DNA of 56,352 nt, from the IMG/VR virus record IMGVR_UViG_3300044960_000268, positions 1-56,352 of that record; one strand, given 5' to 3'. A program made the translations under genes and the position numbers. Shown here in pieces: positions 22,979 to 54,054 of this stretch; the first letter of the stretch is position 1; each line of letters opens with the position of its first letter. Source of the stretch: a virus. Under the pieces are notes generated by a model. That model did not search any database, was not told the DNA's origin, and saw only the letters and a program-made list of their open reading frames with translations.

Positions 22979-24376
22979 TTACCACAGTGGTCCCGCGCGC
23001 CCCTTGGCGTCGTCACCCATCAATGCGGTCAAAACCCACACAGCAGCGTCCATACGATCCGGTGATTTATCGCCATTTAGAGGATCCCACGAGCACATTT
23101 GATCCTCGAGTTCTGGAAACATCCCGACGTGACAGACTCGGTTCTTTTCGTACAGTGTACTGATGGGCTCAGCCCTCGTTCGTTTGCCACGTGTGGCATG
23201 AACTGAACGGTAATTAACCCCACTACTCGTCCTCTCGCCGTCTCGTTTCATGGACGAGGCCACCGCTTGAATGGTGGTTCCGATCCAGTCCCCGCCATTA
23301 TTCACTTCGCCAATGCAGAAGTCGGCATCCCACCGGTCATAGGCGTCGATCATGATGCGAGCGGCTTGAGCAGGGGTAGCCATGCGAGATAGATCTTCTA
23401 GGATCACCCCTCGTCCATCTTGCATCAAGCCTCCGACGATGATCCCATGCTCTGCAGCACGCTCAGTCGAAGTACTTGCTGGATCGAGGGCGACACCCAC
23501 ACGTTTTAAACGGTACTTCCACTTCTCCATCCAGCTTTCATGCGACTCTTCTCGCGGATCGAATGCCGGCAAACGGTTTCTCTCTATAGTATCTCGCTGC
23601 CACAGAGCTCCAGGAAAATCTTCGAGGATCTGCGCATAAATCTCTTGTTTACCGATTCGGGTGTTTTCGTAATCAAGAATGGTTTCTCGATACCACGTTG
23701 GATCCAAATTGTCCTTGTTCTCATGCGAGGTGCCCGTAACAGTGACAGTGGTAGCCATCGCCTTGATCTTCTTTAGTACCGCCAGAGGGCGAGGCGTTGT
23801 CGTGATCAGCTTCCTTGGACGATCATTAGACGCCTCTCTCATCCCAAATGACAGATTGTCCCAGACCTCCTGTGGATGCTTGTACTTAGCGAATTCATCG
23901 AGCCAAGCGGTGTCACCTGAGAAGCCGCGCAATTGGTCGGGCATCTCGTCCGAATATATGGTCGCCCATGATCCGTTAGGCCACGTCAATCGGCGTTTAG
24001 ACGGTTCAAAAGTCGGACGTTCGCTCGGATGAGTGTTTCGAAGAAAGCCGCCGGGACCCTCGATCATGAAGTCACGAGCGTCGGCAGGCGTCTTAGCGAC
24101 GAGGGCGCTCCAGCGGCCCTTCCACGACATTGCTCGAGAATGAACCCATTGAGCGCCTGTTCGGGTCTTGCCAAACCCGCGTCCCGCCAATATCAGCCAC
24201 GTCGCCCAATCACCTTTTGGTGGGAGTTGCTTTGTTCTTGCCCAGAACTCCCACTTCCATTGCAGTTCCGTCAATTGTTCTCGGTTTAACGAGGCGAGCA
24301 TCATCCTCAGCTCGCTCTCCGGCATCTTGGCGATCTCGGATGCGAGTGAGGCGTCCGACGATAACCTCAAGGACAT
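22979..24376 (-). CDS. terL: Terminase large subunit
   Basis: 465 aa. Walker A LAGRGFGKT at 63-71 and Walker B WLDEF at 158-162, followed by ITTTPRPL (coupling motif). The C-terminal RNase H-like nuclease includes GVALDPAS and a late DRMDA. The family is the compact type common in alphaproteobacterial phages and gene transfer agents. ATG 24376 is preceded by AAAGGAAGCAGG. It starts 167 nt inside terS in another frame; its N-terminus (KMPESELRMMLASLNREQ) looks like a genuine terminase start, so the overlap is probably real. Function: ATP-driven DNA packaging and cutting. Confidence 0.95.
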   Translation of the reverse strand: MSLRLSSDASLASEIAKMPESELRMMLASLNREQLTELQWKWEFWARTKQLPPKGDWATWLILAGRGFGKTRTGAQWVHSRAMSWKGRWSALVAKTPADARDFMIEGPGGFLRNTHPSERPTFEPSKRRLTWPNGSWATIYSDEMPDQLRGFSGDTAWLDEFAKYKHPQEVWDNLSFGMREASNDRPRKLITTTPRPLAVLKKIKAMATTVTVTGTSHENKDNLDPTWYRETILDYENTRIGKQEIYAQILEDFPGALWQRDTIERNRLPAFDPREESHESWMEKWKYRLKRVGVALDPASTSTERAAEHGIIVGGLMQDGRGVILEDLSRMATPAQAARIMIDAYDRWDADFCIGEVNNGGDWIGTTIQAVASSMKRDGERTSSGVNYRSVHATRGKRTRAEPISTLYEKNRVCHVGMFPELEDQMCSWDPLNGDKSPDRMDAAVWVLTALMGDDAKGRAGPLW

Positions 24377-24971: not shown

Positions 24972-25271
24972 ATGATCCTACTCAAGCACCTAGCACGTGA
25001 ATACGATGTGGACCCGCGCAAGTTGCGCTCGCGCTTGCGCAAGAAGTTCGGCAAGCACTCGAGATGGCAATGGAAAGACGAGAGCGACCCAGAGTTGGTG
25101 AACGTACGGATATTCCTGTCTCAATCCTCTGGGAAGACCACTGTCGTCTCGCGAAAAAGGCCTACCTCCTCACGGGTGAGCTCCACGCATTCGCCCCCCG
25201 CAGGCATGTTGGCGGCGGCCATTTTGTCATCCCCGCCCCTGACGATCTCGACGCGATACGAGAGAACATAG
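24972..25271 (+). CDS. Short HTH-domain protein (copy 1), likely frameshifted with next
   Basis: 99 aa from ATG 24972, preceded by GAAGGAGAG. Residues 1-45 carry the short helix-turn-helix found repeatedly in this genome (LLKHLAREYDVDPRKLRSRL...RWQW). After about residue 50 the sequence becomes Ser/Thr/Arg-rich and uninformative, while a different frame (gene at 25064) becomes protein-like. Either the two genes overlap by about 200 nt or a -1 shift near 25095..25110 joins them into one ~320-residue protein with an HTH at each end. Confidence 0.6.
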   Translation: MILLKHLAREYDVDPRKLRSRLRKKFGKHSRWQWKDESDPELVNVRIFLSQSSGKTTVVSRKRPTSSRVSSTHSPPAGMLAAAILSSPPLTISTRYERT

Positions 25272-25936
25272 ATCGAGGTCTTCACACAGCTCAGATCCTA
25301 ATAACGAGGAATGAGTTCATGGCATCCTCTATCAACCATTCGCTGAATTTGCCACGCGCTAAGCCAGCACCATTCAGCAAGTACCATTCGAAGTTCGGCT
25401 TCTACTGCTACAGCGACGATGGCCGTTTCTGCTTCCACAACTTCCATTCCGCTTACGCCGCTAAGCACTTCCTCGAGTTCATCATGCAAGGGAAGGACTG
25501 GCGGTGGATCAAGGAAAATGAGATCGTCGTAGAGAACGGGACGCGCATCCGAGGCGAGCGCGTGGACGATCTTGAGCGCGCCTTGACCCACAAATTCACC
25601 TCCGACGAGGCGAAGTACGAAATCCCCGAGCCGGACCTCACCTATTATCGATCCTTTCTGGGGTTGAGCCGCATCAAAGCGCTACCAGACGAACGTCCAC
25701 CTGTAACACGTGCCCCTACGCCTCCTGAAGTCAAAGTGAAGAGGAAGAAAGAAAAAATCAAGGCGGGCGCCTATGTCACCATCGGAGACATCGCTCAAGA
25801 GTTGAGGCGTAAACCTTCAGAGCTGAGGGGCATTCTCCGCAAATTGAAGATACCTAAGCCTGAAACAGGAAATTGGGCATGGCCACCGAGCGAGGCTGAG
25901 CGCATCAAGTCCAAGCTTCGAGCCCAATTGAAGTAG
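25064..25936 (+). CDS. DNA-binding-like protein with C-terminal short HTH (copy 2)
   Basis: 290 aa. The middle (AYLLTGELHAFAPRRHVGGG; KYHSKFGFYCYSDDGRFCFHN) is aromatic-rich and globular, of unknown family. A basic linker (KVKRKKEKIK) leads to the C-terminal HTH (TIGDIAQELRRKPSELRGIL...NWAWPPSEAERIKSKL). ATG 25064 has no clear ribosome site, so the true N-terminus may be the HTH encoded at 24972 in another frame. Confidence 0.65.
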   Translation: MAMERRERPRVGERTDIPVSILWEDHCRLAKKAYLLTGELHAFAPRRHVGGGHFVIPAPDDLDAIRENIDRGLHTAQILITRNEFMASSINHSLNLPRAKPAPFSKYHSKFGFYCYSDDGRFCFHNFHSAYAAKHFLEFIMQGKDWRWIKENEIVVENGTRIRGERVDDLERALTHKFTSDEAKYEIPEPDLTYYRSFLGLSRIKALPDERPPVTRAPTPPEVKVKRKKEKIKAGAYVTIGDIAQELRRKPSELRGILRKLKIPKPETGNWAWPPSEAERIKSKLRAQLK

Positions 25937-26113
25937 TATAGACCCTGCCGCGTAACGACGCATCCTTCTGCTGAGTTAACCTGGCGGGACCTGCCAGGCG
26001 CCTGCCGCACCTGCCGCCAGCCCGCCGCCGCTACTGCCACCGCCGGTCGACACGTGGCGAGCCTTGTGATATGGCCTCGTGGCAAATCGCCACTAGCAGG
26101 TCCACACCTTCCA

Positions 26114-27079
26114 ATGACCCAACACCGCCATCCTCCCTTCCTGATCGCCGCAGGGATCTTATTCCTTGCACTTACACTTCTACTATTGTTCCACCACGTC
26201 CGGTCCATCAGCGATCTCAACCTGACGCACTTCTGGATTGTGGTATCCCTGACAGGCGCGCTGATCACCGGTCATGCCTCAGCTCGCACCACTTTCGGGT
26301 ACCGCTTCTACGCTTTCATCATGTTCATCGTCTGCACTATCGTTTGCGTCACGTTCAGCGCCGGACGTAGCGCTGTGCTCATGGAGCAATATGAGCGAGA
26401 AGCCCTCAAAGGATCCCAAGAATACGCTGCATTGATCGCCGACATTCCGCGCTTGCAATCTCTCGTCGATCAAGCAAAGGCGCAAGCAGACGGAGCGCAA
26501 CGAGCTTTCACTGCAGCAGCCGAAGCGATGGCCAAAGAATGCGCATCCGGCAAAGGCATCCGATGCGACGGCAAGAAAGAGGCGGCCACACTAGCGCAAT
26601 CGAACGCCACGACTCTGTATACCCGTTATGAAGAGCACAAAGAAGCTCTCGACCACGCTCGTGCTAAGCTCGAGTCGCTGAAGCCTCCCGCCCCCGCCAA
26701 CGAAGAATTCCAGTCGTTCGCTCTTCCAGTGGCGTTCCTTTCTGGCAAGCCGGTTTCCGAAGTCATGGACACAGTCAAGTTCTTCGCTCCTTACGTTCTG
26801 GCATTCATCTTAGAGGGCATGACCATCTTCTGCTTCAACGCTCGATACCCCGTCACTCCCCACTCTCCTCCTCCGTCGACCGTGACCGTGACCTATCCTC
26901 CCACAGAGAGGATCGATGTGGCTCAACTCGCCCGAGAGCTGGGTAAGTCTCAGTCAGCCTTGCGCAAGCAGCTCCGCGCCACGATGCCCAAACCCCTTCA
27001 TGGGTCCTGGTCATGGTCTCGAGAAGAAGCGGAGCGTATCAAACAGCAACTCGCGTCAGGCATCGGGAGCGTGCATTAA
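26114..27079 (+). CDS. Membrane protein with C-terminal short HTH (copy 3)
   Basis: 321 aa from ATG 26114 (GTG 26054 is an alternative; neither has a strong ribosome site). Three membrane segments near the N-terminus (FLIAAGILFLALTLLLLF; FWIVVSLTGALIT; FIMFIVCTIVCVTF), a long charged coiled coil (~85-200), and a fourth membrane segment (FAPYVLAFILEGMTIF). The C-terminal HTH (DVAQLARELGKSQSALRKQL...WSWSREEAERIKQQL) belongs to the genome-wide repeat family. A membrane-tethered DNA-binding protein is implied; it may link phage DNA or transcription to the membrane. Confidence 0.72.
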   Translation: MTQHRHPPFLIAAGILFLALTLLLLFHHVRSISDLNLTHFWIVVSLTGALITGHASARTTFGYRFYAFIMFIVCTIVCVTFSAGRSAVLMEQYEREALKGSQEYAALIADIPRLQSLVDQAKAQADGAQRAFTAAAEAMAKECASGKGIRCDGKKEAATLAQSNATTLYTRYEEHKEALDHARAKLESLKPPAPANEEFQSFALPVAFLSGKPVSEVMDTVKFFAPYVLAFILEGMTIFCFNARYPVTPHSPPPSTVTVTYPPTERIDVAQLARELGKSQSALRKQLRATMPKPLHGSWSWSREEAERIKQQLASGIGSVH

Positions 27080-27393
27080 ACGCTCGAGGTTCGCCGCTGA
27101 GGCCCCTTCGCTCGCGCTATTGATCGTAACCTCGCAGCGACTTGAGCGGCGCTACGCTCGGGCTGATCGTTCCAGGTCGCTATGTCCCTGAGACGACTTA
27201 TAGCCAGCGCTATAGCTAGCTCATCATCGCCGCCTATCTTTCTGATGGCTCCGATAGCGCACCAGCGTACCGCCTGAGGGCTGGTCGGATTGATGGGATC
27301 GCCCTTTTTATCTCTCGCCAAGACCTCCTGCGTCCAACATCCGGGTTGCTCGATCAAGTCAGCGGCCGCAAGTATCAATTCTCTGGATTTCAT
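27076..27393 (-). CDS. DUF6197-like protein (paralogue 1)
   Basis: 105 aa from ATG 27393 with GAAGGAGG upstream. Contains AADLIEQPGCWTQEVLARDKKG, AVRWCAIGAIRK and ATWNDQPERSAAQVAARLR, matching DUF6197 small phage proteins and the paralogue at 48831..49175. It is the only leftward gene in this region and overlaps the end of the membrane-HTH gene by 4 nt. Function unknown. Confidence 0.75.
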   Translation of the reverse strand: MKSRELILAAADLIEQPGCWTQEVLARDKKGDPINPTSPQAVRWCAIGAIRKIGGDDELAIALAISRLRDIATWNDQPERSAAQVAARLRSIARAKGPQRRTSSV

Positions 27394-27462
27394 GACAGGC
27401 CTCCTTCTAGTCTCTTCTTCATACATCGAACTAAAACCCCAGTTCAACTCTTGAATTCTCCG

Positions 27463-27491
27463 TTGAGTCGAAGTCAAAAGACCCGTATATA
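27463..27491 (+). promoter_or_regulatory. sigma70-like promoter
   Basis: TTGAGT (27463..27468), 17-nt spacer, TATATA (27486..27491). It serves the gene at 27522 with an expected start near 27498. Confidence 0.7.
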
Positions 27492-27521
27492 TAGATCATG
27501 GTTGATCAAGGAGAGACTACA

Positions 27522-27749
27522 ATGACCCATCTCGAAGATATCAAAATCGGCGATGTGATCAAGTTCAACCCGGGCTACGGCGCTCGTCGCCCCTCCGTCA
27601 CAGTGCGTCTCACGCAGCGCCCCAAGCTCGAAGCAGGGAAATGGCTGATCCAAGGAGTCTTGCTCAAGGCTCGCTCGCGTATCACGCAAAGCGCCATTGG
27701 TACTGAGCGCCTCTGGGTCTATGACCGAGACGAAGTCGAAGTGAAGTGA
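27522..27749 (+). CDS. Small beta-rich protein, unknown
   Basis: 75 aa from ATG 27522, preceded by AAGGAGAGACTACA. The sequence begins THLEDIKIGDVIKFNPG and continues with alternating beta-type residues (WLIQGVLLKARSR; ERLWVYDRDEVEV), resembling a small SH3-like barrel. Single-gene unit with its own promoter and a following GC hairpin. No function recognised. Confidence 0.7.
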   Translation: MTHLEDIKIGDVIKFNPGYGARRPSVTVRLTQRPKLEAGKWLIQGVLLKARSRITQSAIGTERLWVYDRDEVEVK

Positions 27750-27754
27750 AACTC

Positions 27755-27791
27755 TCGGCGCCGCCAGATCGTCCATTGTGGGCGGCGCCGA
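27755..27791. terminator. GC-rich hairpin
   Basis: Perfect arms TCGGCGCCGCC / GGCGGCGCCGA, with the inner loop starting AGATCG. No T-run follows, so it may stabilise the transcript end or attenuate transcription. Confidence 0.55.
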
Positions 27792-27836
27792 ACCACCTTA
27801 ACGTCCATGCATCGCTCATAACCGAAGGAGAGAGCT

Positions 27837-28223
27837 ATGACTGACTTTGAACACCTGAACAACCTGCGTCTTCTCAACGGCAAGAAGCCTCTGAAGACTT
27901 GGAAGGAGTCCAAGGAGCGTTTGCGTCTCGCAATCGACAAGGAGGAAGAGGCCTACGCCAAGTTTGCGTCGCGCCCGAGTATCCCTGACGAAGCCATTGA
28001 GACGCTGAAGCAGACAGGCACTGTCACACTCATCATGAACGAGCCCCAGACAGTGACGTTATCGCAAATCGCACGTGAGCTTGGCATCGATCCCAAAGTT
28101 GCACGTGCGAAAGCGCGCCGCTTGCGTCTTTTCCTCCAGACCTTGGAAGTCGCCAAGCACACCTATGACATCTCCAATCGTGACCGTGTCTCTCAGCTTC
28201 TCGTTCGCGACCACAGGAAGTGA
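27837..28223 (+). CDS. Two-part small protein with short HTH (copy 4)
   Basis: 128 aa, GAAGGAGAGAGCT before the ATG. The N-terminal segment (LNNLRLLNGKKPLKTWKESK) matches a motif common in small phage proteins. Residues ~72-125 are the recurrent HTH (TLSQIARELGIDPKVARAKARRL). Likely a DNA-binding regulator or nucleoid-type protein; its target is unknown. A strong terminator follows at once. Confidence 0.72.
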   Translation: MTDFEHLNNLRLLNGKKPLKTWKESKERLRLAIDKEEEAYAKFASRPSIPDEAIETLKQTGTVTLIMNEPQTVTLSQIARELGIDPKVARAKARRLRLFLQTLEVAKHTYDISNRDRVSQLLVRDHRK

Positions 28224-28237
28224 GAGATCCCCTCCCC

Positions 28238-28278
28238 CTGGAGCTGGAGTTCGTTTTCCAGCTCCAGTTTTTTTTTTT
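28238..28278 (+). terminator. Intrinsic terminator
   Basis: Stem CTGGAGCTGGA / TCCAGCTCCAG with an 8-nt loop, followed by a run of more than ten T. Confidence 0.93.
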
Positions 28279-28280
28279 CA

Positions 28281-28715
28281 CGCGCGCACGCGCGTACACA
28301 ATACACTCTCTTTTTATTGATTATTTTTATATGAAAATCAGCATAGAGAGCCGGCGTCACCGGCTTCCGCTCATGATTTTCAGTGTGAGAGAATCATGAG
28401 CATGTTTCTCACGGAGAAAGAGAGCGTATGTACCCCCTGGAGAGAGCGAGAAGCATGCTCATGCTTCCCACAGAGAGAGAAGCATGCTCCACGCCAGTAT
28501 TTACCGGCTCTAGCGTGACCTCCAGTCATCGTGTTTCTCAAGTGTGCGAGATGTACACGCGCGCGCGTACGCGCACACGCGTATACACGCGCACGCGCTG
28601 TCGCCGGAGTTTGAGTTTTTTAACGAACTGTGCGATACAACCTCTAGGACTGGAGAGCGCCTCCAGTACCGGTTCTCCGGTAGTAGCATGCTGCACCGGA
28701 CACATGGAGTCGATC
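28281..28715. other. Hairpin- and repeat-rich noncoding region, possible origin
   Basis: No gene seen in ~435 bp. It holds, in order: an alternating purine-pyrimidine tract (CACGCGCGCACGCGCGTACAC); an AT-rich stretch (TTTTTATTGATTATTTTTAT); a nested cruciform (TGAAAATCA 28332..28340 with TGATTTTCA 28374..28382, enclosing AGCCGG-CGTCA-CCGGCT); several GAAGCATGCT / AGCATGCTTC-type repeats (28450..28495); a second alternating CG/CA tract (about 28555..28600); and a hairpin ACTGGAG-AGCGC-CTCCAGT before the next gene. AT-rich plus iterated inverted repeats fits a replication origin or a regulatory locus (inference). Confidence 0.5.
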
Positions 28716-28961
28716 ATGAAAACCTTCACTATCTCTCAACTTGCTCAGGAGCTCGGCCTCCATCCAAAGCGGGCACGAGCGATCCTGCGCAAGAGCGGTA
28801 AGGTTCGCGAGGGCACTCGTTGGACGTTCCCAAGCGACCAGAAGTCTGAGCTCAAGTCGATCCTCAAAGTCGCGACCAAGCCTGCCAAGAAGCAATTGAC
28901 GCCCAAGCGCAAGCAGCGCAAGGAGCCGATTGCAGCTGATGAGCATCCCACTCTCATGTAG
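28716..28961 (+). CDS. Minimal short HTH protein (copy 5) with basic tail
   Basis: 81 aa from ATG 28716 (GGAG six bases upstream). Residues 1-50 are the recurrent HTH alone (MKTFTISQLAQELGLHPKRARAILRK...RWTFPSDQKSELKSIL). The rest is Lys-rich (KPAKKQLTPKRKQRKEP), histone-tail-like. A longer upstream reading to 28428 runs through the noncoding repeats and is rejected. Directly beside the possible origin, so it may bind there. Confidence 0.75.
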   Translation: MKTFTISQLAQELGLHPKRARAILRKSGKVREGTRWTFPSDQKSELKSILKVATKPAKKQLTPKRKQRKEPIAADEHPTLM

Positions 28962-29779: not shown

Positions 29780-30388
29780 ATGACTACGCCTACGCAACAA
29801 GTCGTCAAGGAGCTCGAGACAGCGTTCGACTTCTTCAATCGTCGCTTGTTCGACTCTTCGCTTCCACGCTGCATGATCTTGCTTCACCGCCACCGCAACG
29901 TTTACGGGTACTTCTGGCCGACGCGGTGGGAGAACGGAAAGGACAAGCTGCACGAGCTCAGCCTCAATCCTGACTGGCTCAAGGATCGCCCGCTCAAGCA
30001 AGTGCTCAGCACCCTCGTGCATGAGCAAGTCCATCTGTGGCAGCAGTGCTTCGGCAAACCCCCGAAGAACCCCGGCCACAACAAGGAATGGGCAGACAAG
30101 ATGGAGTCTATCGGCCTCATGCCTTCGAGCACCGGCGCTCCGGAAGGAAAGCGCACCGGGCGAAAGGTTAGTCACTACATCCTCGATGGCGGAGCGTTCG
30201 ACACTTGCTGCGATGAACTCTTGGACAAAGGGTTTCAGCTCAGCGCCGTAAGCTGGCCAGCCGATCTCAAGAAGAAGAGGACGCGAACCAAGCGCATCAC
30301 GTATACTTGCCCTGACTGCGAGTTGAAAGTTCGCGGGGTTCCTGAGTTGCACATCTTATGCGGAAATTGCGAACAAGTCCTGAGTTGA
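29780..30388 (+). CDS. SprT-like zinc metalloprotease
   Basis: 202 aa, TTGGAGAG upstream. Active-site motif H81EQVH, with a third ligand likely in GHNKEWADKMESIGL, and a C-terminal zinc ribbon (CPDCELKV...CGNCEQ). SprT/Spartan proteins cleave DNA-protein crosslinks or act as regulators of DNA metabolism. Its own strong promoter suggests independent, probably early expression. Confidence 0.88.
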   Translation: MTTPTQQVVKELETAFDFFNRRLFDSSLPRCMILLHRHRNVYGYFWPTRWENGKDKLHELSLNPDWLKDRPLKQVLSTLVHEQVHLWQQCFGKPPKNPGHNKEWADKMESIGLMPSSTGAPEGKRTGRKVSHYILDGGAFDTCCDELLDKGFQLSAVSWPADLKKKRTRTKRITYTCPDCELKVRGVPELHILCGNCEQVLS

Positions 30389-38162: not shown

Positions 38163-38355
38163 ACCGGGCGACCGTGTGGTCTGCATCAATGATCGACCAT
38201 TCCGCCATGAGAACGTCTATGGCTTGACAAAAGGGGAAGTCTACACAGTAGCGAGTGTCATATGCTCAGGGGCGGGGCTAGTTCTTAAAGAGCTTGATCC
38301 GTTCCCGTTGAAGGGCTTCTACGCTCATCGCTTCGAGAGGGTTACATCATGCTGA
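38146..38355 (+). CDS. Small SH3-like barrel protein
   Basis: 69 aa from ATG 38146 (GAGGATCCTG upstream), overlapping the genes on both sides by 17 and 7 nt. GDRVVCINDRP, GLTKGEVYTVASV and HRFERV are the strands of a small beta-barrel common in phages near replication genes. Function unknown, possibly nucleic-acid binding. Confidence 0.7.
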   Translation: MKRRIEPGDRVVCINDRPFRHENVYGLTKGEVYTVASVICSGAGLVLKELDPFPLKGFYAHRFERVTSC

Positions 38356-39224
38356 TGATCTTCCATGACAAGTTCCCTGAAGTAGTCACCCACTTGATCC
38401 GGATGTTTGATCATTCGGGAAAGTGGGTTCATCCGCATCGTTGGCAAGGAGTGGACGTTCAAAAGCGCCCAGAAGCGCTTATGCGAGAGTTAGTCAATGT
38501 CACAATCGGGTTCTACCTCCAAGGGAACATGAACCTCGATTATTGGCAATCAGAGGTAAAGCCCAATCTCCCTTGGGCGGATGATCATTTTGAAGAACGA
38601 GTTAGCGGAGCCCCCCTCAATCCCGGAACCCAGTGGAAACACTGGCCTTGGGCGAACAGTGCAGACAACTTCCGGGAGGCCGGTCAATTCAACCACACCT
38701 ACATGGAACGTTTCTGGCCGAAGTATGCCGGAATTCTCACGGGCGAACTCAACACTGTGGAAGATTTTCATTCTCGTCTGAATAATCTCGATGAGTCGAA
38801 TGAAGGGGGCATCGATGAGCTTCGAGGCATTCGCCATTCCTATGGCGATCTCGAGGATGTAGTCAAGCTTCTGATCAAGGATCCTTTCACACGTCAAGCT
38901 TATCTTCCGATATTCTTTCCCGAAGATACCGGAGTAGGCGACGGGGGCCGGAAACCCTGCACTCTGGGTTATCAATTCATTCGGCGGGAGAACGAGATGC
39001 ATCTCTACTATCCGATGAGATCATGCGACTTCGTTCGCCATTTCCGCGATGACGTCTATCTCGCCATCCGCCTTGTTCTGTGGGTCCTTCACCAGTTGCA
39101 TGTTCGATCCCCGTGGGCATGGAGAAATGTTCTGCCAGGACAATTCATAATGCACATGACCAGTCTCCATATGTTTGTCAACGACTGGCATCGGTTGACT
39201 CAACATCACGGGGAGAAGGTTTGA
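38349..39224 (+). CDS. Thymidylate synthase-fold protein 2 (putative dNMP hydroxymethylase)
   Basis: 291 aa. TS pattern: RQAYLPIFFPED, catalytic-region RKPCTLGYQFI, MHLYYPMRSCDFVRHFRDDVY aligning with the QRSCDVFLGLPFNI segment, and MTSLHMFVNDW aligning with THLYSNH. The dUMP-reading Asn is again Asp (RDDVY). Clearer than protein 1. Either dCMP hydroxymethylase-like or a divergent TS; two such genes in tandem suggest dedicated pyrimidine modification. Confidence 0.68.
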   Translation: MLMIFHDKFPEVVTHLIRMFDHSGKWVHPHRWQGVDVQKRPEALMRELVNVTIGFYLQGNMNLDYWQSEVKPNLPWADDHFEERVSGAPLNPGTQWKHWPWANSADNFREAGQFNHTYMERFWPKYAGILTGELNTVEDFHSRLNNLDESNEGGIDELRGIRHSYGDLEDVVKLLIKDPFTRQAYLPIFFPEDTGVGDGGRKPCTLGYQFIRRENEMHLYYPMRSCDFVRHFRDDVYLAIRLVLWVLHQLHVRSPWAWRNVLPGQFIMHMTSLHMFVNDWHRLTQHHGEKV

Positions 39225-46879: not shown

Positions 46880-47201
46880 GAGTCGGTTGCAAAGACGCAT
46901 TCGCGAGGCTCTCGAAGATGAAGTAGGAGGATGGTGGATGAAGGTTCACGGGGGCCCTTTTCAATCGGCGGGTATCCCCGACTTGATCGGTTGCACAGGA
47001 GGGCTGTTTTTTGCTTTCGAAGTTAAAACCCCATCAGGGGAAACCTCGGCTCTCCAGGAAGAGATCATGCGGCGCATTCGACGTGAAGGAGGCGCTGTCG
47101 CCGCCGTTGTCACTACACCCGGTCAAGCCGTCACCCTCGTCAAGTACCATCTGGCAAAAGCTAGACGGCTACCAACGGGAATGCGTGGAGTTCGCCGTTA
47201 A
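46863..47201 (+). CDS. VRR-NUC domain nuclease
   Basis: 112 aa, GTG start at 46863 (GAACGAGG upstream) overlapping the MazG-like gene by 17 nt. VRR-NUC pattern: MKVHGGPFQSAGIPDLIG, FFAFEVKTPSGETS and a final GQAVTLVKYHL. Holliday-junction-resolvase-like PD-(D/E)XK fold; often beside an SNF2-like helicase as here. Confidence 0.9.
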   Translation: MSKKPESRLQRRIREALEDEVGGWWMKVHGGPFQSAGIPDLIGCTGGLFFAFEVKTPSGETSALQEEIMRRIRREGGAVAAVVTTPGQAVTLVKYHLAKARRLPTGMRGVRR

Positions 47202-48696
47202 AGTAAAAACCGCAGGACTCTTTCTTGAACAGGGAACTGGAAAGACCTGGGTCTCCCTTGGTGTCATTGAGCGCATTGTACATCATCAAGCCCTTCTGGT
47301 TGTCCCTCTTGCCAACATCGACTCCACTTGGGCTACTCTTCTTACTAGTGAACTCCCCCACATTACCGTTTGCAGAACGCTTAACGCGCTTCATACAGCG
47401 CCTTTCCCCCGTATCCTGCTAGTGCACTACGAAGGATTACCGAAGTGCCTTAAAAAGGCTCGCAAACTCGATTGGGACTTGATCATTTACGATGAGTCCC
47501 AACGATTGAAATCAAGGGGGACTCGTCAATCTCGCAATGCGGCCCAGCTTGCGAATTGTGCTGAGCACAAGTTGATCCTGAGCGGAACCCCCATCGAACG
47601 TCAACCACAGGACTTGTGGGCGCAATTTCGATTTCTTGCCCCTCACGTGTTCGGAACAAGGTGGGCTGACTTCGAAAACGAGTATCTCGAGCCTATCGAG
47701 ATCGATCCAGGAAAGTACAATCCTCGATCACTCAGATATGCTCAGATGATGAGGAAACTCTTGATTGCCAAGAGTAAGCGAAAGTTCAACAAGGAGAAGT
47801 TGCCACAGTTTCTCGATAAGATCAAACCCTATGCTTTGCGTATTACGGCGGATGAAGTGCTTGATTTACCACCCCTCGAATATCATTGGGTCCGCGTAAG
47901 ACTTCGCGGCGAGCAACGGAAGCTCTATGAGGAGATCGAAGAGAACCTGGTGTCGACTACACTTCGCCTCACTACTCCCTTGAAGGTGACTCAGCGTGGG
48001 AAGCTTCAGCAGATTACTGGTGGGTTCGTGATAGATGATGACGGTCAAGCTCATGCTGTAGGCCAAGCGAAACTTCGCGCATTGAAGCGCGTTGTAGTTG
48101 CAAGTCATCGTCCGATTGTCATATTTTGTAAGTACCTTGAGGAAGTCGATGCGATTCGCAGTGAAATCGAAACGTCACTTGGACGAGTTGAAACTCTTAC
48201 TGGAAGGACCAAGAAATCAAGTCGTGGACCGCTTATCAAGGAATTCCAGTCAGGTAAGATCGATGCCCTTGTCTGCCAAATCAAAACGGGCGGAGTCGGG
48301 ATTGACTTGTATCGCGCACGAGAGGGCATCATCTACTCCCCGCCAGATAGTTCCATCGATTTTGACCAGGCCATCAAACGGCTTCACCGTCGGGGGCAAA
48401 CGGAAAAAGTCCGGATCACGTTGCTGTGGGCCGAAAATACCGTTGACAAATCCGTCTTCCGCGCCTTATTGCAGAAGCGCAATGCTCGAGAGGGCATTCT
48501 AGACCACCTGAGGAGAAAAGCATGGCAAAGAAGGACGAAGTCGCATTCAAGTACACTGTCGAGAACCTCGCCGAGGATCTCGGAGTCCAGCAGCAGACCG
48601 TTCGCATCGGACTTCGCAAGCATGGCATTGAGAAGACCGGCAATGTCTACGGCTGGAACAACGAGAAGGACTACAAGGCGGTCTTGGCCAAGTTGA
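47107..48696 (+). CDS. SNF2-like superfamily 2 helicase
   Basis: Helicase core from about 47150: LDGYQRECVEFAV, Walker A EQGTGKTWVSLGV, IYDESQRLKSRGT (motif II as DESQ), LSGTPIERQPQDLW (III), IDALVCQIKTGGVGIDLYRA (V) and KRLHRRGQTEKVRI (VI). The start is unclear: TTG 47107, GTG 47083 and TTG 47011 are in frame, all within the VRR-NUC gene. After GILDHLRRK (near 48520) the frame runs 175 nt through the next gene and looks noncoding. The VRR-NUC/SNF2 pair may process branched DNA. Confidence 0.85.
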   Translation: MSLHPVKPSPSSSTIWQKLDGYQRECVEFAVKVKTAGLFLEQGTGKTWVSLGVIERIVHHQALLVVPLANIDSTWATLLTSELPHITVCRTLNALHTAPFPRILLVHYEGLPKCLKKARKLDWDLIIYDESQRLKSRGTRQSRNAAQLANCAEHKLILSGTPIERQPQDLWAQFRFLAPHVFGTRWADFENEYLEPIEIDPGKYNPRSLRYAQMMRKLLIAKSKRKFNKEKLPQFLDKIKPYALRITADEVLDLPPLEYHWVRVRLRGEQRKLYEEIEENLVSTTLRLTTPLKVTQRGKLQQITGGFVIDDDGQAHAVGQAKLRALKRVVVASHRPIVIFCKYLEEVDAIRSEIETSLGRVETLTGRTKKSSRGPLIKEFQSGKIDALVCQIKTGGVGIDLYRAREGIIYSPPDSSIDFDQAIKRLHRRGQTEKVRITLLWAENTVDKSVFRALLQKRNAREGILDHLRRKAWQRRTKSHSSTLSRTSPRISESSSRPFASDFASMALRRPAMSTAGTTRRTTRRSWPS

Positions 48697-48755
48697 AGGG
48701 CGACGGCAAGGAGTCGAAGGCAGCCAAGAAGGCGACGAAGAAGGAGGCTGCATGA
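48522..48755 (+). CDS. Short HTH protein (copy 6) with histone-like tail
   Basis: 77 aa; TGAGGAGAAAAGC upstream. Residues 8-60 are the recurrent HTH (KYTVENLAEDLGVQQQTVRI; GLRKHGIEKTGNVYGWNNEK), followed by a Lys/Ala tail (KESKAAKKATKKEAA). Starts 175 nt before the helicase frame closes. Probably a DNA-binding protein; last gene of the replication operon. Confidence 0.78.
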   Translation: MAKKDEVAFKYTVENLAEDLGVQQQTVRIGLRKHGIEKTGNVYGWNNEKDYKAVLAKLKGDGKESKAAKKATKKEAA

Positions 48756-48830: not shown

Positions 48831-49175
48831 ATGACGACAATCCAAGTACTGATGGAAGCCGCTGATTTGATCGAACAACCAGGATGCTGGGCTCAAGGCG
48901 CTTTGGCGCGAGATAAAGACGGCTACTACACATCGCCGAGAAGCCGAGATGCCGTGGCTTGGTGTTGGCTTGGAGCTCTGTACAAGGTTACGTCCAACGA
49001 AGCGGTGTACCATGATGCAATGCGCGCTTCTCTTAAATTTGTGACCGACGTTTGCGAATGGAACGATCAACCAGGCCGTACAGCTTCGGAGGTCGCGGCG
49101 GCAATGCGTCAAGTGGCGAAATCGATAGATAGGTCTCTCGCAGCACGAGACGTGTATAGGATCGAGTTTCCTTGA
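48831..49175 (+). CDS. DUF6197-like protein (paralogue 2)
   Basis: 114 aa, GGAGCAGTGAAAG upstream. AADLIEQPGCWAQGALARDKDG, AVAWCWLGALYK and CEWNDQPGRTASEVAAAMR match the leftward gene at 27076..27393, with different ends. The two paralogues lie ~21 kb apart and on opposite strands. Function unknown. Confidence 0.77.
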   Translation: MTTIQVLMEAADLIEQPGCWAQGALARDKDGYYTSPRSRDAVAWCWLGALYKVTSNEAVYHDAMRASLKFVTDVCEWNDQPGRTASEVAAAMRQVAKSIDRSLAARDVYRIEFP

Positions 49176-50471: not shown

Positions 50472-50531
50472 ATGCTCAATGATACCCGCCGTGTGGTCAA
50501 CCAGTTCAATCGGAGGCACCGGAGCAAATGA
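50472..50531 (+). CDS. 19-codon leader peptide
   Basis: ATG 50472 with AAAGGAGAGACGAAG upstream. Encodes a basic 19-residue peptide (MLNDTRRVVNQFNRRHRSK) whose stop overlaps the next ATG (AAATGATG). The strong ribosome site belongs to this ORF, so the metallopeptidase is probably translated by coupling. Confidence 0.5.
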   Translation: MLNDTRRVVNQFNRRHRSK

Positions 50532-50965
50532 TGAGACTGCGCAATACACGCGCTGATGCGACTCAGCGCTTCCTGCAAATCGCAGCCGCAATCAAAGCTG
50601 AGGCGGGTGTGCGTCAGCACTACGTTTGTAAGACTCTTACCGGACGCGCCTGGACCAGTCAGAGTATCATCGAAGCCCCTGAGGGACGAACGAGCCGGCA
50701 GCTGTATATATTGGCACACGAATGCGGACACATTGCTTTGCATCGGGGTAGGGGTAAGGATAAGCCCACCTATCTGAAAGAATTTGAAGCAGAGCAGTGG
50801 GCTCACGACGCATTGCGGCGTCACGGCGTACCGGTACCTCCATGTGAAACGGAGCGAGCTCGCAAGCAAGTGAGTCTCGAGATCTACAAAGCAAAGAGAC
50901 AAGGAGTAACGATTGATCGTGCAGCAAGTCGATTTGCCAATGGAGGATCGAGAACCCATGACTAG
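50528..50965 (+). CDS. HExxH metallopeptidase-like protein (ImmA/IrrE type)
   Basis: 145 aa. Zinc motif LAHECGHIALHRG with a downstream EFEAEQWAHDALRR, the arrangement of ImmA/IrrE-like (DUF955) peptidases. Such proteins often cleave repressors or antitoxins. No HTH domain is attached. Its real target in the phage or host is unknown. Confidence 0.82.
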   Translation: MMRLRNTRADATQRFLQIAAAIKAEAGVRQHYVCKTLTGRAWTSQSIIEAPEGRTSRQLYILAHECGHIALHRGRGKDKPTYLKEFEAEQWAHDALRRHGVPVPPCETERARKQVSLEIYKAKRQGVTIDRAASRFANGGSRTHD

Positions 50966-51606: not shown

Positions 51607-52155
51607 TCAAACACTTCGCAATGCTCTGTAGATGCTTGCCCGTGAACATCGGAGATGGCGTGCCGCCTGAGAGGGGGTAAGATCTGCGCTGACCAGGCGA
51701 CGTACCTCATGAGGATCAATCGTTCGCTTTCTGCCTCTATACTTTCCTTCCTGCTTAGCTTTAGCAATTCCTTCCATTTGACGCTCGCGTCTCAGGTTAG
51801 TCTCGAATTCAGCGAATACCCCCAGCATATCGAGGAAAGCCTTACCCGCTGCGGTTGAAGTATCGATGGGCTGATCCGTTGCCTTTAGATGAACCCCTCG
51901 CTCGCGAAGATCATGCACGATATTCTGTAGGTCCTTTAAGCTGCGGGCGAGTCGGTCGATGCGCGTTACCATCAACGTATCGCCTTCCCTCAGGAATGCT
52001 AGAAGGGTCTCAAGTTCGGTACGTCCTTTCAAAGAGGTGCCACTGATCTTCTCGGACCTGATAGTGTCGCATCCCGCTCGCTTGAGCGCCTCAATTTGGA
52101 TCGTCAAGTCCTGATCGGCACTACTGACGCGAGCGTAGCCAAACATCTTGCCCAT
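51607..52155 (-). CDS. Serine recombinase (resolvase/invertase)
   Basis: 182 aa from ATG 52155 (AAGGAACC upstream). FGYARVSSADQD with nucleophile Ser11, RSEKISGTSLKGR, LMVTRIDRLARSLKDL, ATDQPIDTSTAAGKAF, FAEFETNLRRERQMEGI, then a C-terminal HTH (LTPSQAARHLRCSRASIYRAL). Complete small resolvase/invertase. In a phage it may resolve multimers or flip or delete DNA between sites; a 16-bp palindrome ~155 bp upstream is a candidate site. Own promoter. Confidence 0.93.
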   Translation of the reverse strand: MGKMFGYARVSSADQDLTIQIEALKRAGCDTIRSEKISGTSLKGRTELETLLAFLREGDTLMVTRIDRLARSLKDLQNIVHDLRERGVHLKATDQPIDTSTAAGKAFLDMLGVFAEFETNLRRERQMEGIAKAKQEGKYRGRKRTIDPHEVRRLVSADLTPSQAARHLRCSRASIYRALRSV

Positions 52156-52191
52156 GGCGAGGTTCCTTGTCTCATTTGAGTGTGCGGTGTC

Positions 52192-52220
52192 TAATAACTC
52201 AAAAACCCACCCTATTGCAA
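52192..52220 (-). promoter_or_regulatory. Promoter of the serine recombinase
   Basis: Minus strand TTGCAA (52220..52215), 17-nt spacer, TTATTA (52197..52192). Confidence 0.55.
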
Positions 52221-52308
52221 CTGAAAGGTGTCGCACGAAGAAGAGTCTCGGTAGCGTGTACCCGAATGAGACGCGATTTTTGCCGGCGTGAGGCTTCCCC
52301 GCTCGTAA

Positions 52309-52324
52309 CCGAGTGATCACTCGG
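52309..52324. repeat. Palindrome site B (CCGAGTGATCACTCGG)
   Basis: 16-bp perfect palindrome upstream of the serine recombinase, where res sites normally lie. It shares 15 bp exactly with site A (33982..33996). The rest of 52156..52486 holds no supportable gene. Confidence 0.8.
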
Positions 52325-52486: not shown

Positions 52487-53686
52487 CTACGCCGCTAGGC
52501 GAGTGCCTCGATATTTCCAGGCTTGCTCGTAATACCCTAAGTCGAAGAAGGGGATCCACTCCTGTCGAAAGCGGGTGATGGCTCCTTCTCGATTTATGGT
52601 CATCTCCACAGTCCATCCTCCCACGTGGGCCTGTAGCTTGTGCTTCCGCATGAAAGGAGTCTGATCGCAGGTGCATCCGCCCTGAATGACGTGCACTTCC
52701 CGCGGGTATCCGTATTCCGCCTTATGGTAATGGCCTACGAGGAGAACGTGAGGTTTCTCGCCGCTCTGGTATGACTCGACAATCTTCTGGACGCTATAGC
52801 TTGTCGCGTAAGCCGATCCGCCACCAGCATGGATCAATCGTAGAACCGTATCTTTCTTCTCGCCGCGAAACACTATGTCGTGCTCCATGTGCCCGAGATA
52901 AATCAAGTCATCCCTGCCCTCTTTGCGAGCGGTGTCTTCGAGATATTGTCCAATGACGATGCCTTCCCGCTGGACATACCATCCTTCGTGATCATCGCCA
53001 GTAAGAAAGTATGTCTTCATTCCTTCTCGTTTCGGCCACTGTTTAGCCAAGTACTTGGCCTGACCTTCCATCCCGTGGACGTGGAGATCGTATCGATTGA
53101 CGCGCGACTCTCCATCAATGATGTTGCCGAGCTGATATACCGTATCGATCCCCTCCTTCTTCCACAGGTCGAATAGGGCATTGAGGACATCGAGGCGCTC
53201 GTACTTCGATCCAAGGTGATTGTCAGCGGTAACCCCAAATCGGATCACTCTTCCTTCGAGGCGGCGAATATCGATCCTCAAGGGCGCGCCTTTCGGGATT
53301 TCCTTGGATAGCTCCATTGCATCGTCAGCTATGTGAACATTGTGACCTAGCTGTTTCAGTTCTTTAGCTGCCTGTCTTACACGCGCTGGAGATACATCGA
53401 GAGCATCAGCGATTTGTTCTATCGTTCTCAACTGTCGGCGCTTCTTCAAGATGTTAACGAGTTGTTGGGTTAGTGCGTCTTTCTTCACAGAAGACTCTGA
53501 GCTTTCTCCAAACCTTCGTCCTTGAGTAGTGACTCGATAGCGGAGTCCTCGATTACGAACTCCGGCGACAGTGAGATTGGTCTTGAATTCCCTATTGACT
53601 GCGTCAGTAAGAGTCTGCCAGTTGAAAGCGTTTGCTGCGTGCTGTCGAATATATTCGTTGATCCTCTCAGAAAGAGCCTTGTTCAT
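52487..53686 (-). CDS. HTH-metallophosphoesterase (SbcD/Mre11-like)
   Basis: 399 aa; start overlaps the upstream TGA (ATGA). Residues ~70-115 are a helix-turn-helix (QIADALDVSPARVRQAAKEL). Residues ~150-380 are a calcineurin-like phosphoesterase: FGVTADNHLGSKYE, QLGNIIDGE, FLTGDDHEG (GNHE-like), LIHAGG and VGHYHKAEYG. Could be a nuclease or phosphatase; the N-terminal HTH suggests a DNA target. It follows the lysis genes on the same strand. Confidence 0.83.
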   Translation of the reverse strand: MNKALSERINEYIRQHAANAFNWQTLTDAVNREFKTNLTVAGVRNRGLRYRVTTQGRRFGESSESSVKKDALTQQLVNILKKRRQLRTIEQIADALDVSPARVRQAAKELKQLGHNVHIADDAMELSKEIPKGAPLRIDIRRLEGRVIRFGVTADNHLGSKYERLDVLNALFDLWKKEGIDTVYQLGNIIDGESRVNRYDLHVHGMEGQAKYLAKQWPKREGMKTYFLTGDDHEGWYVQREGIVIGQYLEDTARKEGRDDLIYLGHMEHDIVFRGEKKDTVLRLIHAGGGSAYATSYSVQKIVESYQSGEKPHVLLVGHYHKAEYGYPREVHVIQGGCTCDQTPFMRKHKLQAHVGGWTVEMTINREGAITRFRQEWIPFFDLGYYEQAWKYRGTRLAA

Positions 53687-54054
53687 CTTATCCCCATCTC
53701 GATTGACCGAAGCACCGCCCCTATCCCGGTGCCGATCACCAAACCCGCAATGGTATACCCTATGCGGATTAGAATGCCTTGAGGAAAAGCTCGGTTAAAG
53801 GCTTTAAGGCCTTCCCAAAAGCGGTCCCTGCTGTGGTTCCGGGCCCGTGAAGAACGGCGCCGACGACGAGTAGAAGTGCGATACGCACCGTTTGCCTTAC
53901 GAGGTCCTTGAGTTCCTTCACGTGACTTTCGAGTTGATCGAGTCTTTTTAGAACGTGAGGATGTTCCGCTTCCAAGGCGCGAACCCTCTCCGGGATTGTG
54001 TGCCTTTTTGGCCTCTTCGCCATAGGATACTCCGTTATAGACTCTTTTAGTCAC
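53683..54054 (-). CDS. Basic TM protein frame containing a nested gene
   Basis: 123 aa from GTG 54054 (GAGGATGTGCT upstream). The N-terminal 75 residues are extremely Arg/Lys/Ser-rich; residues ~90-115 form a membrane segment (GYTIAGLVIGTGIGAVL). Its stop overlaps the ATG of the phosphoesterase (ATGA), which supports use of this frame. It wholly contains the gene at 53769..54023 in another frame. The basic part may be a shadow. Confidence 0.4.
   Translation of the reverse strand: MTKRVYNGVSYGEEAKKAHNPGEGSRLGSGTSSRSKKTRSTRKSREGTQGPRKANGAYRTSTRRRRRSSRARNHSRDRFWEGLKAFNRAFPQGILIRIGYTIAGLVIGTGIGAVLRSIEMGIR
53769..54023 (-). CDS. XhlA-like holin accessory protein
   Basis: 84 aa; CGGAGTATCCT precedes ATG 54023. 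A coiled coil (RVRALEAEHPHVLKRLDQLE; SHVKELKDLV) followed by a membrane segment (TVRIALLLVVGAVLHG) resembles XhlA-type haemolysin/holin partners. Near endolysin and holin, so a lysis role is likely. Confidence 0.65.
   Translation of the reverse strand: MAKRPKRHTIPERVRALEAEHPHVLKRLDQLESHVKELKDLVRQTVRIALLLVVGAVLHGPGTTAGTAFGKALKPLTELFLKAF

Follow-up and report, generated by a model that had tools for sequence, protein, structure and literature searches.

Six copies of one domain in the window

The window analyzed here, 56,352 bases long, is a virus contig from IMG/VR (IMGVR_UViG_3300044960_000268), and its plus strand carries six copies of a short helix-turn-helix (HTH) domain, referred to below as copies 1 to 6. 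A first-pass annotation had proposed from the sequence six copies standing alone, at protein ends and on a membrane protein. All six were present and these contexts were borne out, with copies 1, 5 and 6 alone with or without a tail, copies 2, 3 and 4 at the C-terminus, and copy 3 on a membrane protein. The positions 25064, 26114 and 27837, listed there as those of the domain, are starts of open reading frames (ORFs) and not of the domain itself. The genes, the domain boundaries and the helicase gene next to copy 6 are as follows; the wHTH (winged HTH) is a predicted fold.

24972-25271, plus strand: copy 1, short gene in which the HTH nearly fills the coding-like part, its tail overlapping copy 2 in another frame; domain at 24975-25124
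25064-25936, plus strand: copy 2, small predicted alpha/beta domain with a C-terminal wHTH, start at 25064 or 25319; domain at 25772-25927
26114-27079, plus strand: copy 3, 321-residue membrane protein (from hydropathy and charge) with a C-terminal wHTH (from the profile); domain at 26909-27058
27837-28223, plus strand: copy 4, class B protein with an N-terminal motif and a C-terminal HTH (from the profile and alignment A3); domain at 28050-28211
28716-28961, plus strand: copy 5, HTH with a Lys/Arg-rich tail, calculated pI 10.9; domain at 28722-28877
47113-48696, plus strand: SNF2-type helicase (Pfam SNF2-rel_dom, E = 8.4e-26, and Helicase_C, E = 1.5e-13; PHROG 62 DNA helicase, E = 7e-99)
48522-48755, plus strand: copy 6, helicase-linked HTH with a Lys/Ala tail, ATG after GAGGAGAAAAGC; domain at 48546-48707

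The domain boundaries were taken from a larger profile that includes the window copies and whose E-values hold by construction. The relatedness of the copies was assessed by a leave-one-out procedure, in which the six stretches were aligned, a profile was built from five and the missing copy was sought in all six-frame ORFs of the window. Each copy was recovered (E = 1.8e-5, 2.3e-10, 4.2e-8, 1.5e-5, 3.6e-9 and 2.7e-3 for copies 1 to 6, respectively), and the six copies therefore form one domain family. The best stretch that is not a copy was a partial match in the ORF 52490-53794 on the minus strand (E = 0.0026 to 0.4), and the rest gave E = 0.27 or worse. Copy 6, the weakest of the six, exceeded the next match about hundredfold and the margin was greater for the other copies. 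At the level of sequence profiles, recovery of the six beyond chance was thus confirmed and the copies are real.

A seventh, partial match at 53369-53425 on the minus strand (E = 1.9e-4 over 19 profile positions) was left out of the copy count. The protein that holds it, encoded at 52487-53686 on the minus strand, weakly matches HTH_11 close to the N-terminus and calcineurin-like phosphoesterases, and its HTH is weakly family-like.

The window copies share 17-40% pairwise identity and their HTHs have a calculated pI of 9.1 to 11.1. The W-x-W pattern described for the domain in the first-pass annotation holds strictly for copies 1, 2 and 3 only, being W-x-F in copy 5 and Y-x-W in copy 6, and both tryptophans are missing from copy 4. 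The Lys-rich tails ascribed to the stand-alone copies are present on copies 5 and 6 and absent from copy 1.

All window proteins scored below the curated Pfam cut-offs for HTH families, including copy 5 with the KilAC antirepressor domain (PF03374; score 17.5, cut-off 25.3). The best Pfam HTH matches of 57 family members (E about 3e-4 to 1e-3) were spread over many families, and similarity to PHROG excisionases was weak (E = 0.0005 to 0.07). Sequence searches of solved structures gave no meaningful relatives. In a BFVD search, proteins of phages PMBT14 and Serbin headed the list, yet with E above 0.001. Judged by these searches, the domain is without a name in either Pfam or PHROG.

Predicted fold

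AlphaFold2 models covered copy 6 and copy 2 (25319-25933). In the copy 6 model the block pLDDT was 83-87 across the domain, and helices were predicted at 13-20, 24-33 and 48-62, with short strands, the wing, between the last two. The copy 2 model had a block pLDDT of 89-97 in the wHTH; for most of the small alpha/beta N-terminal domain the values were 78-93. In both models the order of helix, helix, wing and helix is that of the MerR-like wHTH architecture, so structure prediction, a check proposed in the first-pass annotation, gave wHTHs and not unrelated folds. The closest solved folds to both models were the DNA-binding domain of RacA (PDB 5i44; Z = 5.8 and 6.8) and pSK1 Par (8csh; Z = 5.5 and 6.4), which are anchoring or partition proteins and not classical regulators (PMC11500499, PMC5859096). 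Further matches were the IF2 N-terminal domain and MerR-family regulators, and Foldseek added BldC and Xis (Pukovnik Xis).

The Z values of the models are moderate and point to a MerR-like wHTH and not specifically to RacA. In RacA and Par the wHTH is N-terminal and a coiled coil comes after it, an arrangement seen in none of the six copies, where the domain is C-terminal (copies 2, 3 and 4) or alone (copies 1, 5 and 6). Identity to these two solved structures was 14-24%. RacA and pSK1 Par were also not among the matches of the PDB sequence profile searches. The N-terminal domain of copy 2 was left unassigned, its fold matches (EVH1/PH-like) being weak and scattered (Z of 4.0 or less).

Occurrence in the phage lineage

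By DNA polymerase, the nearest named relatives of the window were Desulfofustis phage MD02, siphovirus ctuI7215 and Brevundimonas phages Polewnik and Strzyga (50-54% identity), with Serratia phage Serbin, Pseudomonas phage PMBT14 and others farther off. An iterated profile collected more than 100 domain copies over 90 loci, of which 57 were aligned (alignment A1), and two arginines in the second helix are invariant across these 57 domains. The search of phages with a profile, also proposed beforehand, found the domain across the lineage. It was present in one to six copies in 24 of 24 whole records with a related DNA polymerase, picked mainly for length; six copies are the upper end of the range, matched by Strzyga.

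The polymerase matches supplied fifteen further named phages for the search. Among these, the closer relatives (ctfzr933, Lebethron, P744 and PMBT14) had two to four matches each, and Gordonia phage Cozz and Streptomyces phage Zuko gave weak matches only. The domain was absent in nine more distant phages searched (Vibrio sm030, Salmonella Shivani, Microbacterium Sedgewig, Listeria LP-026, Mycobacterium Marcell, Pseudomonas BHU-15, Silicibacter DSS3phi2, Pseudomonas LKA1 and Pelagibacter Unn). In tblastn searches of 50,697 named phage records, three consensus domains matched 9, 2 and 14 records, all among the closest polymerase matches; because tblastn is limited for a domain of 50 residues, the spread may be wider. 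A scan of genome contigs with the class A consensus, which detects close relatives only, found none, and a scan for relatives of copy 2 likewise returned none.

When the window copies were compared with 135 other domains, five of the six had their nearest relatives in other phages, the exception being copy 3. The nearest relatives were short genes in ctuI7215, MD02, L099, L100, L104 and L105 for copy 1, C-terminal domains in Polewnik, L100, L092, L101 and others for copy 2, class B-like domains for copies 4 and 5, and helicase-linked domains of other phages for copy 6. Trees of 50-residue domains are modestly supported, and these class assignments follow nearest-neighbour scores. On such scores, the copies are old classes common to several phages and not one burst in this phage, with class membership differing from phage to phage. 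The phage-specific DNA-binding family of the first-pass annotation was upheld as one family, found in phages and with a predicted DNA-binding fold; the idea of an expansion private to this phage was contradicted both by the lineage records and by the nearest relatives.

Linkage to an SNF2-type helicase

The strongest context clue, overlooked in the first-pass annotation, is the link to the helicase. In the window, the 3' end of the helicase gene overlaps copy 6 in another frame. Helicase loci were counted if they were polymerase-selected and held the helicase C-terminus and at least 330 bases beyond. A class A HTH lay no more than about 200 bases from where the helicase match ends in 45 of 50 such loci, as an unbroken in-frame fusion in seven (L015, L047, L048, L057, L062, PMBT14 and Serbin) and as a separate ORF in the other 38. 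Among loci found via the HTH itself, some on contigs shared with the 50-locus set, the helicase preceded the HTH in 20 of 21, the remaining one being cut off upstream.

All seven fusions keep an in-frame internal ATG at the position where the stand-alone gene starts (products MAKK.., MADK.. and MATKK..), with a purine-rich, ribosome-binding-like stretch (such as AAGGAG, AAAGGAG or TGAGGA) about 6-10 bases 5' of it. This conservation suggests from the sequence that phages with the fusion may produce both the helicase-HTH fusion and the free HTH.

Other proteins carrying the domain

The ORFs of copy 1 (24972-25271) and copy 2 (from 25064) overlap by 208 bases in different frames. Codon usage favoured the copy 1 frame up to about 25060 and the copy 2 frame from about 25090, and this switch makes the end of copy 1 and the start of copy 2 uncertain. 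A short gene of the copy 1 type followed by a gene of the copy 2 type is a kept pair in the window and in L084, L085, L099, L100, L104 and L105. In three of these phages, namely, the window, L099 and L100, the ORFs of the pair overlap, each in a frame of its own. The overlap may be an ordinary one, a frameshift or an assembly error. The alignment of the copy 2 type (A2) comprised 24 relatives.

Copy 3 has about four hydrophobic stretches and a long central helical region with two cysteines. Given an even number of membrane helices and a cytoplasmic N-terminus, as read from hydropathy, its wHTH is probably cytoplasmic. The domain closest to that of copy 3 is copy 2 of the same genome (40% identity), encoded by the neighbouring gene, and copy 3 is therefore most simply a local copy of the copy 2 type placed on a membrane protein. 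The protein is weakly similar to DUF4407 (E = 1.3e-4, under the Pfam cut-off). No match to copy 3 was found by tblastn in the 50,697 phage records, and further scans found no relatives of its membrane part, which is compatible with either a recent fusion or a fast-evolving gene. By description, copy 3 resembles proteins of the phi29 p16.7 type, phage membrane proteins with a DNA-binding domain.

In alignment A3 (copy 4 with 16 relatives), the class B N-terminal motif LNxLRxxxGKxPLKxWKxSKxxL is conserved and most relatives have a long basic linker. The N-terminal part of copy 4 had no match in Pfam or in solved structures, and its HTH is degenerate, with the tryptophans lost and a different wing. 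A strong terminator-like hairpin with a T tract (28238-28267) directly follows copy 4. Alternating CG/CA tracts of about 20-50 bases with inverted repeats nearby precede copy 5 (28279-28300 and 28554-28605).

Proposed role and alternatives

We consider it fairly probable (about 0.6) that the six copies, as one domain family in the MerR-like wHTH superfamily, are an interchangeable DNA-holding module that was kept by the lineage and brings early proteins to DNA. Its varied contexts, namely, the helicase, protein ends and a membrane protein, make the domain look like a reusable handle for viral DNA, and we infer that it would bind DNA with low sequence specificity. The copy 6 domain, fused or free, would bring the SNF2-type helicase to phage DNA or keep it there, copies 1 and 5 as small basic proteins could coat DNA, copies 2 and 4 would place the module on proteins that have another region besides it and are thereby brought to phage DNA, and copy 3 might tether the DNA of this phage to the membrane.

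Coating or tethering of DNA had been suggested in the first-pass annotation, and precedents for it exist, the role here being proposed by analogy. Gp94 of mycobacteriophage Alexphander, likened here by its description, carries a MerR-like wHTH at its C-terminus. This domain coats DNA with little preference for sequence, and the protein is essential for lytic growth; unlike here, a single gene with a DinB/YfiT-like N-terminal domain is described, and no helicase linkage was seen in that description (PMC11242194). The fold also occurs in RacA, Par and RocS, which serve in DNA anchoring or partition (PMC11500499), and RacA and Xis are architectural DNA binders (PMC5859096). RocS of Streptococcus, a membrane-binding segregation protein, combines this wHTH with an oligomerising coil and membrane binding and is in idea like copy 3, from which it differs by its amphipathic helix, its opposite domain order and its being a bacterial chromosome protein (PMC11500499).

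Several points weigh against a DNA-holding module. Fold similarity is modest throughout (Z under 8; Foldseek E of 0.014 or worse), so that the assignment to the MerR-like group rests on overall shape, and sequence-specific regulators have the same fold. Five of the 50 helicase loci, those with the most divergent helicases (L056, L063, L064, L069 and L070; 24-29% identity), are without the HTH, and the helicase can hence dispense with it. Copy 3 is known from one genome only, which leaves the anchoring role to a single sequence. A wider version, in which a single reusable domain in the helicase (with nested starts giving fused and free forms), in small basic coating proteins and in a membrane anchor acts as a shared adhesive for the phage replication site, is speculative and in our judgement unlikely.

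Because regulators share the fold, which is also that of MerR, CueR and BldC, a live rival is that the copies are sequence-specific transcription regulators, each with its own early or middle promoters, and that the helicase linkage reflects operon order only. Weak similarity to PHROG regulators and excisionases (e.g., phrog_66 and phrog_101) and the position of most copies at the start of the early-gene side, beside the switch to structural genes, agree with this, as do the AGAAGCATGCTC repeats and long inverted repeats just upstream of copy 5. For the AGAAGCATGCTC repeats, however, the window showed no enrichment (16 matches, allowing up to 2 mismatches, against 11.3 expected), and they were rejected as operators on that ground, so that no operator is claimed. 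Sigma-70-like sites were not enriched either (1 match in 4.6 kb, 2.4 expected in shuffles). A regulator would not usually be fused in frame to a helicase or to a membrane protein, and the domain is C-terminal in copies 2, 3 and 4. The regulation of many small promoters put forward in the first-pass annotation thus found no positive evidence; regulation of dispersed promoters is less likely than a DNA-holding module and, taken by itself, doubtful.

It is improbable that class A alone works with the helicase, leaving the others as duplicates in drift or as accessory genes that serve unrelated ends and share no role. The degenerate HTH of copy 4, the low identity among the window copies and the class membership varying between phages would fit such drift, but the classes of copies 1, 2 and 6 and of copies 4 and 5 recur across phages with their own architectures, and the two arginines are invariant across the aligned domains. 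Very improbable, finally, is a set of excisionase-like accessory factors for the serine recombinase (resolvase/invertase) encoded at 51607-52320 on the minus strand; the fold overlaps that of Xis and the recombinase is present in the window, but its gene is distant from the copies, one class is associated with the helicase instead, and a single excision partner would not need as many as six copies in a genome.

What is new is a variant domain within a known superfamily, marked by an unusual range of architectures and a good link to the helicase, and not a categorically new domain. A domain that Pfam and PHROGs leave unnamed has been delimited and, since the two are repeatedly adjacent or fused, tied to a phage helicase. 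The cultivated Brevundimonas phages Polewnik and Strzyga, Serratia phage Serbin and Pseudomonas phage PMBT14 provide candidate proteins for testing DNA coating, recruitment of the helicase and nested starts of translation.

Genome layout and surrounding genes

The layout of the window is usual for a tailed phage. The large terminase is encoded at 22979-24376 on the minus strand, as are the surrounding ORFs, and the plus strand from 24936 carries mostly early genes, including helicases, polymerase, exonuclease and a thymidylate synthase homologue. The latter (38349-39224, plus strand) lies at the place in the gene order where ctuI7215 is annotated with a pyrimidine hydroxymethylase, and the two together are a hint, from gene annotation, at modified bases in the phage DNA. 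Two DUF6197 paralogues with 43% identity are encoded near the domain genes, one between copies 3 and 4 (27076-27477, minus strand) and one just past copy 6 (48831-49175, plus strand). A gene for an SprT-like protein (29780-30388, plus strand) is annotated in the relative ctuI7215 too, and an IrrE-like metallopeptidase (Peptidase_M78, E = 1.8e-5) is encoded at 50528-50965 on the plus strand.

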